Source: Thioalkalivibrio sp. ALJ24
GTDB taxonomy: Bacteria; Pseudomonadota; Gammaproteobacteria; Ectothiorhodospirales; Ectothiorhodospiraceae
Length of the DNA stretch: 64,000 nt
Direction: 5' to 3'
NCBI RefSeq assembly: GCF_000377785.1
Contig: NZ_KB898732.1
Span: 1-64,000 of the forward strand
A program made the translations under genes and the position numbers. The first letter of the stretch is position 1; each line of letters begins with the position of its first letter. Under the pieces are notes generated by a model, which saw only the letters and a list, made by a program, of their open reading frames with translations, made no database searches and was not told the DNA's origin. Shown here piece after piece: positions 4,159 through 53,546 of this stretch.

Positions 4159-6054
4159 TCAGTTGGCGGATCGGGCCAGAAAGCCCTCGAACATCAGGAG
4201 AGACCACAGCGCCGGGCTGTGATCGCGGGCGCCACTGACATGCTGCTTCACCAGGGTATTCAGGTAGTCCATGTTGAAGATGCCGGAGTCGGCCATGCGG
4301 GGACCGAGGACCTGGGCTTGCATGCGTTCGCGCAGGGGGCCGCGGAACCATTCGGCCACCGGTATGGAAAAGCCTTTCTTGCGGCGGTACAGGATTTCGT
4401 CCGGCAGGTAGGGCTCCATGGCCTTTTTGAATACATATTTGCCTTCGCTGCCGCGCAGTTTGAGATCCGGTGGCAGCCCCGAGATCCACTCGACCAGCTT
4501 GTGGTCGAGGATGGGGACGCGCACTTCCAGCGCGTGCGCCATGCTCGCCCGGTCGACCTTGGTCAGGATGTCGCCCGGCAGGTAGGTCTTCATGTCGAGG
4601 TACTGGACCAGCGACAGCGGGTGGTCGGTGGGGGCCCGTTCCGCATGCCCGCGCAGCACCTCGACCGCACCGTAGCCCTGCAGCGAGCGGCGGAACTCGG
4701 GCGAGAACAGATGGGCGCGCAGGTCGTCACGCAGGATCGACACGCCCTGGAAATAGCCTTCGATCGAATCCCGCGCCAGGGCCTGGAACGTGGCCTTGGC
4801 GCGCAACGGGCGCGGGGCCCAGTCGGCCTTGGGGTAGAGGCGTGCCAGGGCCCCGAACAGCCCGCGCCGCAGGCTCAGTGGCAGCGGACTCCGCAGGCGT
4901 TCTTCCGAGAGGTGATGACGGTAGCGCCGGTAGCCGGCGAGGTTTTCGTCGCCGCCGTCGCCCGACAGTGCGACAACCACCTGCTCACGCGCCTGCTCGC
5001 AGACCCGGTAGGTCGGCAGGGCGGAGCTGTCGGCAAAGGGTTCGTCGTAGATTCCCGCGAGCCGGTCCAGCAGCGAGAAGTCGTTCGGGTCGACCTCGCG
5101 CACGCTGTGACGGGTGTGGTAGCGGTCGGCCACCATTTGCGCATAGCGGGATTCGTCGAACGCGGCGTCGGCAAAGCCGATGGCGGAGGTCCGCACCGGG
5201 TCATCGGACAGCCCCGCCATCATGGCGACCACGGCGCTGGAGTCCACACCGCCGGAGAGGAAGGCGCCCAGCGGGACCTCGGCGACCATGCGAATGTCCA
5301 CGGCCTCGTTCAGACGCGCGGTCAGCTCTTCGGCCGCGGTGGCGACATCCGCGACCCCGCTGTCGGCAAACGGGACATCCCAGTACTCCCGTGGCTCGCC
5401 GGGCGTGCCCTGGCCCCGTCGGACGGTGAGCGTGTGCCCGGGGGGCAGCTTGTGGACGCCCTGGAAGATACTGCGCGGTTCGGGTACATAGCCGAAGGCG
5501 AAGTAGTCCTCGACCGCAAACGCGTCCATGCGCCGCGGCAGGTCGGGATGCGCCGTCAGGGCCTTGAGTTCGGAGCCGAAGATCAGGTGGCCGTCCGGCA
5601 GCGTGCTGTAATAAAGCGGCTTGATGCCCATCCGGTCACGGGCCATGAACAGGGTGTCGCGATTGCGATCCCAGACGGCGAACGCGAACATCCCGCGAAA
5701 GCGTTCCACGCAGGCCTCGCCCCATTCCTCCCAGGCATGCACGATGACTTCGGTGTCGCTGTGCGTGCGGAACTGATGTCCTGCCCGCTGCAGCTCGGTG
5801 GTGAGCTCCGGGAAGTTGTAGATCTCGCCGTTGTAGGTGACGACGACGGTCTCGTCCTCGTTGAACAGCGGCTGCTGTCCGCTGGAGAGGTCGATGATGG
5901 AAAGGCGTCGGTGGGCGAGCCCCACACCCGGTTCCAGATGCGTTCCCCCTTCATCCGGCCCGCGGTGAAACTGCGTTGCGTTCATCGTTTCCAGCAACGA
6001 GCGGTTGATGGGGCGCTGCTCTCTGAGGTCGAAGATGCCGGTGATGCCGCACAT
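4159..6054 (-). CDS. XrtA/PEP-CTERM-system amidotransferase (asparagine-synthase-like)
   Basis: 631-residue glutamine-dependent amidotransferase of the asparagine synthetase B fold. The start at 6054 gives MCGITGIFD, placing the catalytic Cys at position 2 as class II glutaminases require; longer upstream readings would destroy this. The glutaminase domain shows RGPDEGG (31-37), HRRLSIIDLSSG (48-59) and YNGEIYN (74-80). The synthase domain has the PP-loop SGGVDSS at 267-273. In exosortase A loci this family (TIGR03108) is thought to amidate a sugar carboxylate or another polymer component rather than make asparagine. It lies between two glycosyltransferase genes in the same direction, 110 bp after the previous one. 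Confidence 0.93.
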   Translation of the reverse strand: MCGITGIFDLREQRPINRSLLETMNATQFHRGPDEGGTHLEPGVGLAHRRLSIIDLSSGQQPLFNEDETVVVTYNGEIYNFPELTTELQRAGHQFRTHSDTEVIVHAWEEWGEACVERFRGMFAFAVWDRNRDTLFMARDRMGIKPLYYSTLPDGHLIFGSELKALTAHPDLPRRMDAFAVEDYFAFGYVPEPRSIFQGVHKLPPGHTLTVRRGQGTPGEPREYWDVPFADSGVADVATAAEELTARLNEAVDIRMVAEVPLGAFLSGGVDSSAVVAMMAGLSDDPVRTSAIGFADAAFDESRYAQMVADRYHTRHSVREVDPNDFSLLDRLAGIYDEPFADSSALPTYRVCEQAREQVVVALSGDGGDENLAGYRRYRHHLSEERLRSPLPLSLRRGLFGALARLYPKADWAPRPLRAKATFQALARDSIEGYFQGVSILRDDLRAHLFSPEFRRSLQGYGAVEVLRGHAERAPTDHPLSLVQYLDMKTYLPGDILTKVDRASMAHALEVRVPILDHKLVEWISGLPPDLKLRGSEGKYVFKKAMEPYLPDEILYRRKKGFSIPVAEWFRGPLRERMQAQVLGPRMADSGIFNMDYLNTLVKQHVSGARDHSPALWSLLMFEGFLARSAN

Positions 6055-7340: not shown

Positions 7341-8899
7341 CTCTGGTTCACTTCGGCAAGCCGGTCCAGGACGTCGGGCAGGACCGCCTCTGCATAGTCG
7401 CGCAGCCGCTCCTCCGCGGGATCGGGATCAAAGCCGTACGGCGCATACAGAACGATCAGCGCGGCGTCGTCGCGCTGGCCCAGCAGGCGATTGAGGGCCT
7501 CGCGCGCCTTGACCTCATGCGGCGAGGTCGTCAGGCGGCCATCGACCCAGTACCAGCGCCAGACCACCAGCTGCTGCTGCCCGGGGCCTTCCAGCAGGAA
7601 CCGCTGGGCATCGGGGAACTCGTCGAATGCGGTGCGGCCCCGCCGGGTTTGCGACCAGTCCTCGGCGCGATCGCGACCGGCCAGGGTGTTGGCCCAGCCG
7701 ACCATGCTCCCGTGCCGGGCCTGACCGCGGTAGAACAGCACGTGCGCGCCCACCGGGTCGTTGCCCCCCTCCGGCTGTACGAGGCCGCCGCGTCCGTCCC
7801 TGGCAAACCGGTATCCGGGCGTCCAGGCGAGGTCCTGCTCCTCGGCGGCATGCCAGCCGTCGGGGGCCAGCGGGCCCTCGCCCAGTCCGGTGACCGGCCC
7901 CAGGTCGCGCTGATTCATCCAGGCCGCGTAGAGCGGCGCCGCGCTTGCCAGGGCGCCGGCGAATACCGCGGCGGTCACGAACCGGCGGATCGCGGGGTGC
8001 GTCCGGGCGGCGGGCCGGGCCGGTTTCCGTTGCGTTTGGTCGTCGAGGTGGTCTTCTCGCCAGATCGCTCCAATGAGGAACATCAGGAAGATGATCACGC
8101 CAAAAAACACCCATCCGTACACCAGATGGTCGACACCGGCCGCCAGCCGCATGTCGCTCAGGTGGCCGATCATCACGATGCCGTAGGCGCGCATCCAGTT
8201 GGCGACAATGGGCACCAGGATGGCGACCCCGACGAACGCCACCCGGCGCCAGGGGCTGCGATAGATCAGGAATGCATACAGGGTTCCCACCGCTACCGAG
8301 GCCATCAGGTAGCGGACCCCGGAGCAGGCCTCCACGACCGACCATCTGCCCGTTGGCAGCTCGAAGTTCAGGCCATCGCGATAGATGGGGATGCCCGACC
8401 ACTGCACCGCCGCAACCGTGAAATCGGCGGTCCAGATCATCATGGGTTCGACCATGAATTCGCCGAAGGGGACCGCGAACAGCAGGTAGGCCAGCGGGAA
8501 CTGCAGTCGCCAGGTGATCGCGCTGCCCAGCACCAGCCAGAAGAGCGCGGGAATCATCAGCACCGCCGCGAACTGGCGCACCGAGATCACGTCCACCAGC
8601 TCGCCGGCGACCCAGACCAGCGAAAGCCCCAGCAGCGGCACCATGGCCCACCAGGTCGGCTCCGGTGCCAGGTGCCGGACCTCGTCGCGCTTGAGGTAGA
8701 GCAGAAACAGAACGATCGGGACGATCAGGAAGCCGTGCGCGAAGGTATCGGAGCGCTGCCAGATGGCGACCATGGAGGCGAACGTCGGGTAGTACGCGAC
8801 GCCCAGGATGACCAGGCCCAGCCCGAGTGCGGCGGCTGCCAGCCACCAGCGCATCTGCAGTGCGTCCGGCATGGATTGGGTGCGGGATTCAGAGGCCAT
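7337..8899 (-). CDS. xrtA: Exosortase A fused to an EpsI domain
   Basis: 520-residue integral membrane protein. Residues 20-280 form the eight-helix EpsH/exosortase domain with the three catalytic positions visible: Cys192 in VVEACSGVRY, Arg237 in NWMRAYG and His258 in DHLVYGW. After a charged linker at about 281-305 and one further membrane segment, residues 330-520 form the periplasmic EpsI domain. By analogy with the family, it cleaves PEP-CTERM sorting signals and transfers the substrate protein to a membrane or polysaccharide-linked acceptor. Two possible substrates are in this window (41356 and 51590). The start at 8899 overlaps the upstream glycosyltransferase stop by 11 bp; Met10 is an alternative. 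The fusion of both domains is usual for XrtA. Confidence 0.95.
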   Translation of the reverse strand: MASESRTQSMPDALQMRWWLAAAALGLGLVILGVAYYPTFASMVAIWQRSDTFAHGFLIVPIVLFLLYLKRDEVRHLAPEPTWWAMVPLLGLSLVWVAGELVDVISVRQFAAVLMIPALFWLVLGSAITWRLQFPLAYLLFAVPFGEFMVEPMMIWTADFTVAAVQWSGIPIYRDGLNFELPTGRWSVVEACSGVRYLMASVAVGTLYAFLIYRSPWRRVAFVGVAILVPIVANWMRAYGIVMIGHLSDMRLAAGVDHLVYGWVFFGVIIFLMFLIGAIWREDHLDDQTQRKPARPAARTHPAIRRFVTAAVFAGALASAAPLYAAWMNQRDLGPVTGLGEGPLAPDGWHAAEEQDLAWTPGYRFARDGRGGLVQPEGGNDPVGAHVLFYRGQARHGSMVGWANTLAGRDRAEDWSQTRRGRTAFDEFPDAQRFLLEGPGQQQLVVWRWYWVDGRLTTSPHEVKAREALNRLLGQRDDAALIVLYAPYGFDPDPAEERLRDYAEAVLPDVLDRLAEVNQR

Positions 8900-41355: not shown

Positions 41356-42207
41356 ATGACCAAGAAGATGACAATGGCCGCCACCGGGGTGGCTCTACTT
41401 TTGGGGCTTTCTGCATCTAATGCGCTCGCCGGAAGCAAAGAGTTTGACGTGGATGCGAACCTGCTAGGTGAAGATGTTCAGTTCACGGCCGACGAAATCA
41501 CCGGAAGTTGGAGCACGGACCTCGACCAAACCTTTGATGGCGCGGGCGTTACCACGCAGGGCTCGGGCTGGCTCAACTTCGGCACATTTAAACTCGCCGA
41601 TACCGAGCTTGATTTTGACGTCACCAAACTCGCGTCTCGGGCCTCAGACACCACCTACGACCTCTGGGTGGAATATAGTTACACTGCATCCGGTGATCTT
41701 GACGGTCAAACTATTGATGAGTTGTCGTACTCGATGTGGGGGTTCAATCGGCCAGATGATGGGTCTGGGGAGCGACTGGAAACCACGTCCGCTGACCTTG
41801 ACAATGGCACGTTGATAGGAGCGACGACCAACTCAGACGACCTCGACTCAGGCCGCCTCTTTGAACTCGCCTTTGGCGGAATTGGTGGGCCTGAAGAGTT
41901 CTCTGGCTTTGGGAACCTTTTCGGTGGGTTGGATGATGCGTTTTTGTCGGCAACCGCCGAGTTCATCCTCACCGAGTATGGCGAACAGTTCTTCGTCTCG
42001 CCACGCCCGTTCTTCGACTTTGCGTTCGTCACCGAGAGTGCGCAAGACCCGGAGTTTAACGGCGAAATCGGCGAAGATCGGCAGGGTTTCGTCGGTGGCA
42101 GTGGTGAGTTCAGCTACACGGCCGTGCCAGAGCCTGCGACTCTGGCGCTGATGGGCTTCGGGCTTCTTGGCCTGGGTCTGATGATCGCGCGTCGCCGCGT
42201 GGGCTAG
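41356..42207 (+). CDS. PEP-CTERM sorting-domain protein, substrate of XrtA (1)
   Basis: 283-residue secreted protein. Signal peptide MTKKMTMAATGVALLLGLSA with cleavage after NALAG. The mature part is acidic, rich in Asp/Gly/Thr/Ser/Phe, with FTADEITGSWSTDLDQTF near the start, a layout reminiscent of the flocculation-associated PepA group. The C-terminal sorting signal is VPEPATLALMGFGLLGLG followed by LMIARRR, that is PEP motif (258-260), membrane helix and Arg cluster. It is expected to be cut by XrtA at the PEP motif and to join the extracellular matrix. Its own sigma-54 promoter precedes it and a strong terminator follows. Codon use is less GC-biased than in its neighbours. Confidence 0.95.
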   Translation: MTKKMTMAATGVALLLGLSASNALAGSKEFDVDANLLGEDVQFTADEITGSWSTDLDQTFDGAGVTTQGSGWLNFGTFKLADTELDFDVTKLASRASDTTYDLWVEYSYTASGDLDGQTIDELSYSMWGFNRPDDGSGERLETTSADLDNGTLIGATTNSDDLDSGRLFELAFGGIGGPEEFSGFGNLFGGLDDAFLSATAEFILTEYGEQFFVSPRPFFDFAFVTESAQDPEFNGEIGEDRQGFVGGSGEFSYTAVPEPATLALMGFGLLGLGLMIARRRVG

Positions 42208-49233: not shown

Positions 49234-49770
49234 CTATGCTTCTGCGTGGAATTCGCGGTATTCCTCGAGGAAGGCGAGACGGGTGGTGTCGGTCACCCGG
49301 TCGATGAACAGGGTGCCGTCGAGGTGGTCGATCTCGTGCTGGAACACGGTGGCCAGGAAGCCTTCGGGTTCCAGACGACGGGCGGTACCGTCGGGCTCGC
49401 GGTAGTCAACGGCGATGTGGCGCGGCCGGGCGACTTCGCCGCGCAGGCCGGGTACGGACAGGCAGCCTTCCCAGTAGCATTGCGGCGTCGAATCCAGCAC
49501 GGTGACCACCGGGTTTACCAGCACCAGTCGGCCGGTGGGTACGGCATCGGGGTAGCGCGTGTTGCCCGGCCGGATCTCGATCACGGCCACGCGCCGCGAG
49601 TCACCGATCTGGGCGGCGGCGAGGCCGAGCCCTTCGCTGGCGTGCATGGTGTCGACCAGGTCGTCCACCAGCGCCCGCAGCCCGGGGCTGCCGAAGTCGC
49701 CATCGGCCACCGGGTCGCAGACGCGACGCAGGTCGGGGTGGCCCATACGCAGGATACGACGAACGCTCAT
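49234..49770 (-). CDS. def: Peptide deformylase
   Basis: 178-residue metalloenzyme that removes the N-formyl group from new proteins. All three motifs are intact: GLGLAAAQIG (47-56), EGCLSVPG (101-108, Cys metal ligand) and QHEIDHLDG (144-152, two His ligands and catalytic Glu). The start at 49770 gives MSVRRILRMGHPDLR, the usual N-terminus. It stands alone, convergent with the SRPBCC gene and divergent from the DUF429 gene, so it is probably a second or stand-alone deformylase rather than the one paired with fmt. Confidence 0.95.
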   Translation of the reverse strand: MSVRRILRMGHPDLRRVCDPVADGDFGSPGLRALVDDLVDTMHASEGLGLAAAQIGDSRRVAVIEIRPGNTRYPDAVPTGRLVLVNPVVTVLDSTPQCYWEGCLSVPGLRGEVARPRHIAVDYREPDGTARRLEPEGFLATVFQHEIDHLDGTLFIDRVTDTTRLAFLEEYREFHAEA

Positions 49771-49842: not shown

Positions 49843-50475
49843 ATGGGGCAGTGGATCGTGGGGGTGGATCTGTCCGGGCCCGGGAGTGCCGGGCAGACGT
49901 CCGTCGCCGTTTTCGCCGAGCGCGGCGGGGCGCTCCGGCTGCAGGAGCTGCTTGCGGGGGCGGATGATCAGGCGATCCTGGACCGTGTGCCGGCTGCGGC
50001 GGTGGTGGGGCTGGATGCACCCCTGTCGTATTCGCCCGCCGGGGGGAGCCGCACCTCCGACCGGTCGCTGCGCCAACTGGCGGTGGAATGGGGCCTGCCG
50101 GCCGGCACCGTGATGGCGCCTTCCGCGCCGCGGATGAGCTACCTGACGCTCCGCGGTGTTGCGGTCAGCCGCATGCTCGCCACCGAGCGCCCGGATGCAC
50201 GCGTGGCGGAGGTGCACCCCACGGTCGCCATGGCGCTGGGCGGGGCTTCGGTCGAGACCCTGAAGGCGATGAAGCACGCGGCGGACGCGCGACGGCAACT
50301 ACTGGCCTGGCTGGATCGACAGGGTCTGGACGGGGTGCGCGATCTCGCCGAGGCCAGCGACCATTCAGTGGCGGCCTGCGCCGCGGCATGGGCCGCCTGG
50401 CAGTGGAGCCGGGGCCGCTCCGCCTGGATCCACCCGGCCGAGCCACCGCAACACCCGTACGATTTCGCCTGCTGA
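49843..50475 (+). CDS. DUF429 family protein (predicted nuclease fold)
   Basis: 210 residues preceded by AAAGGAG (49831-49837). DUF429 features are WIVGVDLSGPGSAGQTSVAV at the start, VVGLDAPLSY, EVHPTVAMALGG, and DLAEASDHSVAACAAAWAAW near the end. The family has an RNase H-like fold and is predicted to act on nucleic acids, but no activity is established. The last 115 bp (50361-50475) recur at 52489-52603 with only four differences, all synonymous. That makes this gene the boundary of a repeat-flanked segment. Confidence 0.8.
   Translation: MGQWIVGVDLSGPGSAGQTSVAVFAERGGALRLQELLAGADDQAILDRVPAAAVVGLDAPLSYSPAGGSRTSDRSLRQLAVEWGLPAGTVMAPSAPRMSYLTLRGVAVSRMLATERPDARVAEVHPTVAMALGGASVETLKAMKHAADARRQLLAWLDRQGLDGVRDLAEASDHSVAACAAAWAAWQWSRGRSAWIHPAEPPQHPYDFAC
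50361..50475 (+). repeat. 115-bp direct repeat, left copy (3' end of the DUF429 gene)
   Basis: It matches 52489-52603 at 111 of 115 positions. The differences are CAT/CAC, TCA/TCG, TGC/TGT and TGC/TGT in frame, so every one leaves the protein unchanged. The two copies are 2128 bp apart in the same orientation and enclose the second PEP-CTERM gene. Confidence 0.9.
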
Positions 50476-51528
50476 ACGGCGCGAAGGCGCAGCGGCACCC
50501 ACCAAGCGGAGGATGTCTCCGAGAGTCGTGTGCGCGATGCGGAACGGGACGGAAATTGTGGCCGGGGGCGTTGTGTGGAGCCGTCAAGGCCTTGATTTTT
50601 CATTAAGAATTTTCGTTTTGGTTCGATCAATGTCTGCAGAAAAACCTGAGATGAACCTGTCACGCGCGCCTATCGCGCCCGCGGAGCTGCGTTTTTGACA
50701 CTTCAACCCGGGGCAGCAGTCGTGCCGTGCTGCTGCACCCGCTGTTTGACCGCCTTATGCATACCGCCGTCGCCGAACGGACAGCCCTTCTCGCTACGCG
50801 TTGCGGCTCGCTTGCGATGACTACATAGGCTGCCATCGCACCCACACGGGACTTGCGTAGCAACAAGTGACCGGACGCCGGTAAGGGGGTGCAGGTAGCG
50901 CACGCCGCAGCTTACGGCGGGCGGATTTTCAATCCTTTGTGGGGGTCGCCGGGACACGTTCCCCACGGGTCAGTGCGGCAGTGCGCAAAACGGCTAACGC
51001 ACATGACGGGCGCGTCAACGGCGGAGGAACCGACGCCATACGGCGTGGCCAAGTGGTTCGCGCTGTTCGCTTTCTGACAGGAAGCCGGGCATCCGGGCCC
51101 AAAGAAGGAAGGAGTGCCCCTGGATGTCTGCTGTTGGGTCTGGAGGCTCCAGCTCCGGGAGTGAACGGGACGGCGAAGACCAGGGCGGCATCAGGTCCAG
51201 ATCGTGAATCCACAGCGGAGCGTCCGTTAGCCCGCCCGCCTGGCAGTAGACGAAAAGCCCGGACGGGGCCTCCGGCAAGCCCGGAAATACGCCACGCACC
51301 GGCCTTCGACGGCGGATGACCTACCAGTAAAACGGGAGCTTGTGTATCGCGCTCGGCCAGTGGGGGCATCTCGAAGGTCACCTCAAGACGGCGCTCCGCC
51401 GTGCTTCAGGTTACGAACAACACGCGCTGTCGATCGAATTTACAGTGCAATCTGCTCCGACGGAAGGACCAGTGCGACACCCGACAAAACATGGCGTAAG
51501 TTGCTGGCTGGGAGAGCCATTAAAGAAT
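50476..51528. other. Non-coding segment between DUF429 and the second PEP-CTERM gene
   Basis: About 1.05 kb with no gene I can support. A minus-strand frame at 50703-50966 has the look of a widely annotated false translation of a conserved intergenic repeat (it is Cys/Arg/Ser-rich with no fold pattern). The 13-mer GGATTTTCAATCC at 50923-50935 equals the anticodon-arm sequence of the tRNA-Phe gene at 53506-53518. An AT-rich patch lies at 50590-50625. The right part contains an activator-like element (51437-51444). Confidence 0.45.
51437..51444 (+). promoter_or_regulatory. Candidate PrsR upstream activating element (second PEP-CTERM gene)
   Basis: AATTTACAGTGCAATCT resembles ACTTTACACGTGCGCATCT at 41186 and lies 87 bp before the GG of the sigma-54 promoter, against 89 bp in the first gene. 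Inference. Confidence 0.4.
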
Positions 51529-51546
51529 TTGGCCTGAAGTTTGCTT
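51529..51546 (+). promoter_or_regulatory. Sigma-54 promoter of the second PEP-CTERM gene
   Basis: TTGGCCTGAAGTTTGCTT has GG-N10-GC spacing (GG 51531-51532, GC 51543-51544), a perfect TTGCT -12 box, and two mismatches in the -24 box. The start of transcription would be near 51556, about 34 nt before the ATG, leaving room for the GGAGG ribosome site. Confidence 0.7.
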
Positions 51547-51589
51547 GAAACGTTACGCTGTGCAAAGCACGTTAATTCGAGGAGGTTGT

Positions 51590-52255
51590 ATGATCGAAAA
51601 ATACCGATTTGCCCCCATGGTTGCCCGGCTCGCCACCGCGTCGGCTCTCGCCATGTTCTGGATGCACACAGCAGCCGCCGCTCCGATAACCTCTCTGGAA
51701 GATGATCCTACATGGTCCGTGGACGGAACCGGAGAGATCGTGGATGACGCACCGGGTGACCGCGGGGCGGCGTTCATCGAGGGCGGATCTACCCTTGTAG
51801 GCGATGAGTTTGATATTTCGTCACCGGAGTTGTTCGACGGAGACCCCGTGACGGCGAGCTTCACTGTTTTCGGTCAGGCCGGAGGAGATCTTGATCTGGA
51901 GCTAGAGGCTCCGAACGATAGAGTAAGCGGAGATGAAACCTTGTCGACCGATGAGGACGGCTGGACCGATATCACGGCCACTTTTAACATCCCTTGGTTT
52001 CTCATTGGATCGGAATCTATCGCTCCAGATTTCGCCAATATCGACTTTCAGGCGGACGACGACATGTACATTGACTCGTTCGCTCTGACGGCTGAGTCAT
52101 CAGATTTTGAAGGCCGGGAGTTCACTCTTGGCGAAGCGGATTTCGGTGAGGTTGCCGAGGTTCCGGTACCTGCCACATGGATCTTGATGGCTGCCGGGGT
52201 CGCTGGCTTGGGTCTGATTCGCCGTAAAAGGTTGCGCGGACAAGCGGCGGAGTAA
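51590..52255 (+). CDS. PEP-CTERM-like sorting-domain protein, substrate of XrtA (2)
   Basis: 221-residue secreted protein. GGAGG at 51581-51585 fixes the ATG at 51590. The signal peptide has the core VARLATASALAMFWMHTAAAA. The mature part is strongly acidic (many Asp/Glu, about 20% of residues) with a possible beta-sandwich pattern. The C-terminal signal begins at residue 191 as VPVPATWILMAAGVAGLGLI with RRKRLR, so the usual PEP is replaced by a VPVP variant also seen in exosortase substrates elsewhere. DNA is less GC-rich than the surroundings. The gene lies inside the segment bounded by the 115-bp repeats and may have arrived with it. Confidence 0.88.
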   Translation: MIEKYRFAPMVARLATASALAMFWMHTAAAAPITSLEDDPTWSVDGTGEIVDDAPGDRGAAFIEGGSTLVGDEFDISSPELFDGDPVTASFTVFGQAGGDLDLELEAPNDRVSGDETLSTDEDGWTDITATFNIPWFLIGSESIAPDFANIDFQADDDMYIDSFALTAESSDFEGREFTLGEADFGEVAEVPVPATWILMAAGVAGLGLIRRKRLRGQAAE

Positions 52256-52260
52256 AGGCA

Positions 52261-52278
52261 AGGGGCATGGACGCCCCT
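52261..52278 (+). terminator. Short hairpin after the second PEP-CTERM gene
   Basis: AGGGGC and GCCCCT pair around ATGGAC, 6 bp after the stop codon. The stem is GC-rich but no T tract follows, so it is a weak terminator candidate. Confidence 0.4.
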
Positions 52279-52488
52279 CCCGGTTGGGAAAGTGCTGTTC
52301 AATAGCCCTGTATCCGGCTCCATGTATCCTCCCAAAGCGTCTTGGGGAAGGAAATTGGGGCAATCCGCCTATGTAGGGCATCACCATGCAGGGTGTCTTC
52401 CTCGCCGTGAAGCCACTCCGGCACCTGGGAGACACTCGAGACCTTTGCAGCCGTCCCCTTCACGGTGTGACCAGGCCGGTCACGATGT

Positions 52489-52603
52489 CCACTCGGTGGC
52501 GGCCTGTGCCGCGGCATGGGCCGCCTGGCAGTGGAGCCGGGGCCGCTCCGCCTGGATCCACCCGGCCGAGCCACCGCAACACCCGTACGATTTCGCCTGT
52601 TGA
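52489..52603 (+). repeat. 115-bp direct repeat, right copy (orphan DUF429 3' end)
   Basis: It encodes SVAACAAAWAAWQWSRGRSA and the rest of the DUF429 C-terminus through its TGA, without the first 170 codons. See the left copy for the comparison. The truncated antitoxin reading begins 28 bp after its stop. Confidence 0.9.
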
Positions 52604-52630
52604 GTTTGTGACTCAGCGCATTGTGGACGG

Positions 52631-52774
52631 ATGTCGCTGGATTACTACAACAGCCTGATGGAGACCGTGCATCTTCTGCGTTCCCCGGCGAATGCCGAGC
52701 ATCTCAACAAGTCCATTGCGCAATACAAGGCAGGAAAGGCCACCGAGCGTGAGCTGGTAGGCGGGGATGAGTAG
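52631..52774 (+). pseudogene. YefM-type antitoxin, C-terminal half only
   Basis: 47 codons starting MSLDYYNSLMETVHLLRSPA and ending ELVGGDE. This corresponds to the second half of YefM, the toxin-binding part; in complete antitoxins the same MSL-D/E-Y segment is preceded by about 35-40 DNA-binding residues beginning MR.I.Y.EAR, which are absent here. The upstream frame holds unrelated codons after the repeat junction. The ATG could still serve as a start, giving a short toxin-binding peptide without operator binding. It overlaps the toxin gene by 8 bp, as in intact operons. Confidence 0.8.
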
Positions 52775-53030
52775 TCGGCTTCTTTGCTGGACCGACGAAG
52801 CATGGAACGACTACATCTGCTGGCAAGCCCAGGATCGGAAGCCCCTCGGGCGGATCAACAAGTTGATCGCGGATGTGAAGCGGTCACCACTGGAAGGTAT
52901 TGGCACGCCGGAACCTCTCAAGGAGAACCTGGCTGGTTTCTGGTCGCACCGTATTGATGACACCCATCGCCTGGTCTGTGCCGTGGACGGTTCGTCCATC
53001 ACCATCATCTCCCGCCGATACCACCATTGA
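52767..53030 (+). CDS. yoeB: YoeB/Txe-family toxin
   Basis: 87-residue RelE-superfamily ribosome-dependent mRNA endonuclease. Family landmarks are intact: CWTDEAWNDYICWQAQDRK at the N-terminus, GIGTPEPLKENLAGFWSHRI with Glu49, then DDTHRLVCAV and the C-terminal ISRRYHH with the catalytic His. Length is normal for YoeB (84-89). Its start ATG is embedded in the last codons of the shortened antitoxin (ATGAGTAG). Confidence 0.93.
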   Translation: MSSRLLCWTDEAWNDYICWQAQDRKPLGRINKLIADVKRSPLEGIGTPEPLKENLAGFWSHRIDDTHRLVCAVDGSSITIISRRYHH

Positions 53031-53075
53031 GCGCGATTGACGGGGCCGCTGGCCCTCGGCGAAAGGGGCCGGACC

Positions 53076-53312
53076 TCAGGCCGTGAGCATCCGGTACAGC
53101 TCATCCTTCAGTGCGAGGCGTTCTTTCTTCTTTTCCTCGAACGTGATGTCGGAGACGGGCACGCCTTCCTTTTCCAGGCGTTCGATTTCCTTGGTGAGGC
53201 TGCCGTAGCGTTCGAACTGCTTGCGGAAGTGGTCGTCCTGCGTTTTCAGCTCGTGAATCCGTTCTTTCAGTTCGGGAAATTCATGGGCCAGATCGTGATG
53301 TTCGATATCCAT
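53076..53312 (-). CDS. DUF465/YdcH-family small protein
   Basis: 78-residue, almost wholly helical and charged protein (LAHEFPELKERIHELKTQDD, RLEKEGVPVSD, ERLALKDELYRML). This is the DUF465 pattern of YdcH: a short coiled coil with a conserved hydrophobic-Glu heptad. Function unknown. The start at 53312 matches the family's MDIEHH.-like opening. It is convergent with the toxin gene. Confidence 0.85.
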   Translation of the reverse strand: MDIEHHDLAHEFPELKERIHELKTQDDHFRKQFERYGSLTKEIERLEKEGVPVSDITFEEKKKERLALKDELYRMLTA

Positions 53313-53470
53313 GGTCGCGCTCCGTTTGGGGGATTGAAAGGCGTCTGACAGCTGCAACGTAACAGCCGTACGGGGACGTGTTCGAGGGGCATGCCCGGGA
53401 GGCGCCTGCAAGGGAGGTTCAGCAGCCTGCGCGGGATGCGGATGCGAGAGGACGACTGCGGAAGGGGAAA

Positions 53471-53546
53471 TGGTGGCCGGGGACGGAATCGAACCGCCGA
53501 CACGGGGATTTTCAATCCCCTGCTCTACCGACTGAGCTACCCGGCC
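53471..53546 (-). tRNA. tRNA-Phe (GAA), CCA encoded
   Basis: The 76-nt minus-strand sequence folds as a full cloverleaf: 7-bp acceptor stem GGCCGGG/CCCGGCC, D-loop AGTCGGTAGA, anticodon loop TTGAAAA within stem GGGGA/TCCCC, variable loop, and T-arm GGTTCGATTCC. The anticodon is GAA (phenylalanine). The discriminator base is A and CCA is encoded. Confidence 0.97.

Follow-up and report, generated by a model that had tools for sequence, protein, structure and literature searches.

The locus lies in a 64,000-nucleotide stretch of Thioalkalivibrio sp. ALJ24 (contig NZ_KB898732.1, positions 1 to 64,000, hereafter the window). It is bordered on the left by def, encoding peptide deformylase (49234..49770, minus strand; PF01327, E 4e-46), and on the right by a tRNA-Phe gene (53474..53546, minus strand; RF00005, 70.7 bits), the sole Rfam family above the gathering score in 48-55 kb. 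The first gene to the right of def is an intact DUF429 gene (49843..50475, plus strand; PF04250, 64 bits). Relatives were sought among genomes of the genus Thioalkalivibrio, a comparison set with one near relative (about 94%), of another species; the source genome is referred to as G000. The DUF429 gene is 94% identical to its counterpart in T. halophilus HL17 (G007) and 85% identical to that of Thioalkalivibrio sp. ALJT (G026). Its last 115 bp form copy 1 (50361..50475, plus strand) of a direct repeat, and copy 2 is an orphan DUF429 3' end on the same strand (52489..52603). The copies, delimited by repeat search and copy alignment, are 97% identical and spaced 2128 bp, and this is by far the top-scoring repeat in 46-57 kb.

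As the preliminary description had noted, the two copies differ at four positions of the repeat (4, 7, 19 and 112), all of them third codon positions and all synonymous, and both copies give the same translation. Four synonymous differences out of four would have a probability of about 0.002-0.006 under random change. With only four changes this argument taken alone is suggestive only, and the sequences flanking each copy were therefore made the main test of the origin of the repeat. The differences are not only silent but also shifted to the two ends of the repeat: three of the four fall within its first 19 bases and none at positions 20-111, an uninterrupted identical core of 92 bp or more having a probability of 0.0066. 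At the left end, copy 2 bears C4, G7 and T19, which are the states found in the more distant strains G002 (ALMg11), G009, G011 and G021, and then continues with a 92-bp core identical to that of copy 1. This pattern suggests a crossover or a conversion within the repeat core. The cores of the two copies also have three differences from G007 in common.

Between the two copies, the segment is a mosaic. The sequence at 50500..50570 (plus strand) is homologous by local alignment to the spacer that separates DUF429 from tRNA-Phe in G026, and it ends in a remnant of the tRNA-Phe 3' end (about 50554-50570). Alignment with the G026 spacer, including the tRNA 3' end, gave a score of 40, the best of 2,000 dinucleotide shuffles reaching 31; the same stretch also aligns with the tRNA-Phe region of the window itself (35, versus at most 29 in 500 shuffles). 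The tRNA remnant in the window is weak, only about 17 bp long. It is followed by a stretch (50571..51589) with a GC content of 0.57-0.65, below the approximately 0.70-0.73 of the def-DUF429 flank. No relative of this stretch was found in 30 genus genomes, 369 class genomes, plasmids or phages, and its ORFs gave no Pfam domain. The single PEP-CTERM gene of the segment comes next (51590..52255, plus strand, 221 aa; PF07589, 21.8 bits for a cut-off of 20.7; TIGR02595, 20.1 for a cut-off of 16), and neither the genus genomes nor the wider genome contig collection contained a homologue. The search for a donor of both the unmatched stretch and the PEP-CTERM gene yielded nothing in the genus beyond one 30-bp match of chance level, and no match in the 369 class genomes, genome contigs, plasmids or phages. 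In agreement with the preliminary description, no integrase was found in the segment, either in the ORF list or by Pfam searches on its ORFs.

The right end of the segment is occupied by the remnant of an IS5-family element (52288..52485, minus strand), present as two pieces, the left end of the element (52288-52361) and an internal part (52368-52485). Full-length counterparts are found in the source genome itself (G000:C9:132209) and in G029, and the transposase of the full copy is assigned to NF033581 (E 2e-95). The remnant is 82% identical to these full copies, which marks it as an old or a different element. It lacks an internal piece and breaks off inside the element, not at its end, where copy 2 begins, microhomology at the joint amounting to a few bases at most. 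Movement driven by IS5 was rejected as the cause of this joint, the break being internal to the element.

Copy 2 is followed by a 31-bp flank (52604..52634, plus strand) also found after the single DUF429 gene of G007 (reverse complement of G007, 4631-4776, aligned with 52489-52634 at 92.5%). Beyond this flank, the sequence enters yefM at an internal codon. The yefM antitoxin gene is thus a remnant without its 5' part (52631..52774, plus strand), matching PF02604 at profile positions 40-74 only; a 47-aa ORF is possible from an internal ATG, the G007 counterpart being an intact ORF of 105 aa. The adjacent yoeB toxin gene (52767..53030, plus strand; TIGR02116, 93.1 bits; PF06769) has an open frame, with several residues different from those of G007; among them is the final residue (H for Y). 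Judging from these changes, decay of the pair may be under way. Between yoeB and tRNA-Phe, about 360 bp carrying a DUF465 gene (53070-53429) are present in the window and absent from G007, where the flanks of this stretch meet directly. Four of these features, the IS5 remnant, the tRNA-Phe 3' remnant, the missing 5' part of yefM and the tRNA-Phe gene, are additions to the preliminary description.

The true focus of the locus is the tRNA-Phe gene at 53474-53546. Comparison with relatives placed the interval in a gene-gain hot spot of Thioalkalivibrio located between def and tRNA-Phe. The site is empty in G025, G029 and G024, with def and tRNA-Phe 7-9 bp apart, and it is occupied by differing cargo in other relatives. 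G001, G020, G005, G011, G002 and G004 carry a HigB-HigA-like pair or just the antitoxin half of one (this naming is based on ORF sequences, not on a profile). The 3' part of tRNA-Phe is repeated at a distance, at the far end of the cargo, in G004, G021, G011, G002 and G007; the window has only the weak remnant. This repeat measures 51 bp with 100% identity in G004 and G021, and 25-30 bp in G007, G011 and G002. In G004 (L044, 3322-10155), the two perfect 51-bp repeats enclose an integrase element (PF00589 and an arm-binding domain); the same 51-bp repeat surrounds a similar element in G021 (L046), the integrase having been confirmed in G004. In G026, tRNA-Phe lies 130 bp after DUF429. G007 shows the succession DUF429, a three-gene operon, a 25-bp tRNA 3' fragment, a 5' fragment of def, intact yefM-yoeB and tRNA-Phe, and the operon (L014, 2947-6071) matches all three parts of the candidate defense system PDC-M28. 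A short MITE-like insert with long inverted ends, recognized by eye, interrupts the end of the higB-like gene in G002 (L050, about 8350-8530, reverse strand). The preliminary description had suggested looking for other cargo between the same repeats: other cargo is indeed present in this interval, but its borders are def and tRNA-Phe and not the DUF429 repeat.

Fragments of neighboring genes recur at the hot spot. Fragments of the def 5' end lie beside the higBA-like genes in six genomes, and in G007 the tRNA 3' fragment is joined to a def 5' fragment. In G001, G020 and G005 these def fragments are nearly identical, and they are no closer to the def gene of their own genome than to those of others, so they seem to travel with the higBA-like cassette. 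We considered on this basis whether small hot-spot cassettes in general could carry pieces of neighboring genes (def 5' with tRNA 3', or DUF429 3') as homology handles, with which they would spread between strains and stack at def/tRNA-Phe without an integrase. The near identity of the higBA-linked def fragments in three genomes is the best hint of such built-in handles, a reading that we nevertheless consider unlikely.

The two flanks of the DUF429 repeat are of different types. The sequence after copy 1 resembles that of G026 and the sequence after copy 2 that of G007, each of these strains having a single DUF429 gene, which implies that the two DUF429 ends have different histories and that two haplotypes stand in tandem. 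This supports, mainly through the flanks, the earlier proposal that one copy came from another strain, and G007 is the relative that had been predicted, with DUF429 directly joined to the copy-2 flank. The repeat is therefore probably the scar of a joining in tandem of two hot-spot haplotypes, homologous on one side and illegitimate on the other. From the sequence arrangement we infer the following order of events, homology-facilitated route and direction of transfer. In a haplotype X, a short spacer would have separated DUF429 from tRNA-Phe, at whose 3' end foreign DNA had been inserted, comprising the unmatched stretch, the PEP-CTERM gene and an IS5 copy. In a haplotype Y, DUF429 would have been followed by another flank and then by yefM-yoeB and tRNA-Phe. 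On entry, the X DNA would have paired with Y within their common DUF429/def sequence, the crossover taking place either in DUF429 or to the left of it. The non-homologous end of X, inside the IS5 remnant, would then have been joined illegitimately to the resident DUF429 about 38 codons before its end. As a result, DUF429 would have been kept whole and the cargo gained, the old 115-bp end being left before the flank of Y. One such event would account for most of the arrangement.

Several observations argue for this joining of haplotypes. Taking out one repeat unit restores a whole DUF429 gene followed by a flank as in G007. The copy-1 flank is homologous to the G026 spacer, with a score that 0 of 2,000 shuffles attained. 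Homology is one-sided, with DUF429 on the left and, on the right, the IS5 remnant, cut inside the element, joined into DUF429 at copy 2. The distant-strain states of copy 2 before a core identical to copy 1 point in the same direction, as do similar gene-end scars with other cargo at the locus and published precedents for the process (PMC5361080, PMC3240628). The search for a donor having both the same homology arm and the cargo gave no relative of the cargo in 30 genus or 369 class genomes. Against the joining of haplotypes stand the three core differences from G007 common to both copies, by which either the joint is younger than the split between G000 and G007 or the core was converted. As to which arrangement came first, G026 suggests that the copy-1 flank is ancestral, but these core differences would date the latest exchange between the copies to after that split.

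Other histories could produce a repeated gene end, and the flanks and the IS5 joint bear on each of them. Arrival of the segment as a circle carrying the 115-bp DUF429 end, followed by a single Campbell-type crossover with the chromosomal gene, would leave exactly the intact gene on the left, the cargo and the orphan end on the right, and it also predicts that differences should lie towards both repeat ends, with an identical core between them. However, the IS5 remnant would have to have been joined to a DUF429 end beforehand, on a molecule of which no example was found in plasmids or phages, and the copy-1 flank resembles a chromosomal DUF429-tRNA-Phe spacer; we regard this route as rather unlikely. 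The copies might instead both date from the ancestor of G000 and G007. Recombination between the repeats would then have removed the segment from G007, and gene conversion would have kept the G000 core identical. The ancestral look of the copy-1 flank in G026 fits such a history, and a single gene bearing the copy-2 flank, as in G007, is what a repeat-mediated deletion would leave. Against it, the three differences from G007 common to the copies would then need conversion, and the PEP-CTERM segment left no trace in G007, making the loss unlikely.

Site-specific elements typically sit at the 3' end of a gene and restore the gene end. Both features are seen here, and an element whose integrase is now gone could have attached at the DUF429 3' end, in line with the earlier suggestion of integration there. 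As a recurring target, the DUF429 3' end found no support, and it was rejected as an integration site: each of the six other genomes having DUF429 carries just one copy of the 115-bp end, and three of them have similar DUF429 3' flanks. Moreover, the recurrent attachment gene at the locus is tRNA-Phe, and the right joint falls inside the IS5 remnant, so that we hold such an element to be very improbable. No more credit can be given to a tandem duplication within one genome, followed by deletions and by decay of copy 2 in place. The 97% likeness of the copies and the frequency of gene-end fragments at the locus would suit it, but the two copies have different, separately attested flanks, and the exclusively silent nature of their differences would not be expected (see the probabilities above).

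The preliminary description had also raised the possibility of a small unit that exchanges exosortase substrates. Among the PF07589 matches in 29 relatives, none falls within the recovered hot-spot intervals. The exosortase gene is separate, at 8060-8812 of the window, and close relatives have exosortase too. Since PEP-CTERM motifs are absent from the other recovered hot-spot intervals and exosortase is both separate and present in close relatives, substrate swapping is left unsupported. Two further results fail to support a swapping unit: no repeated DUF429 end was found elsewhere, and no relative of the PEP-CTERM gene could be detected. Two further PEP-CTERM motifs were noted in the source genome, at 42121-42195 of the window and at G000:C2:1092. 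What the locus has in common with PEP-CTERM/exosortase sorting is the PEP-CTERM signal of the cargo gene and the exosortase gene in the window; the repeat is not explained by the sorting system.

Genomic islands are known to use tRNA genes as integration hot spots, for example the asparagine tDNAs of Klebsiella (PMC4891358). The Thioalkalivibrio locus is similar in that a conserved gene and the tRNA 3' end enclose variable cargo, with tRNA 3' fragments at the far end and an integrase element in G004, and differs in that no integrase was found in the window, its tRNA remnant is about 17 bp, and its mosaic cargo is bounded by gene-end scars. Homology-facilitated illegitimate recombination has been reported in three competent species, where insertion typically goes together with a deletion in the product (PMC3240628). 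The proposed event resembles it in the homologous exchange on one side, the non-homologous join on the other and the gain of foreign DNA; unlike the published cases, it is deduced from sequence only, as an insertion. The same route was proposed for the orphan immunity arrays of the V. cholerae T6SS (PMC5361080). These arrays and the displacement of Rhs C-termini (PMC5361080) likewise have a homologous upstream anchor and an old 3' part pushed downstream as an orphan; in contrast, DUF429 is not known to encode an effector or an immunity protein, and the 38-codon fragment that forms the orphan end has no known function. A repeated gene end that resembles a mobile unit can thus be read, through the flanks of each copy, as the fossil of two strain haplotypes in tandem, and the def/tRNA-Phe interval is a compact spot in which to search for toxin-antitoxin and defense cargo in Thioalkalivibrio.
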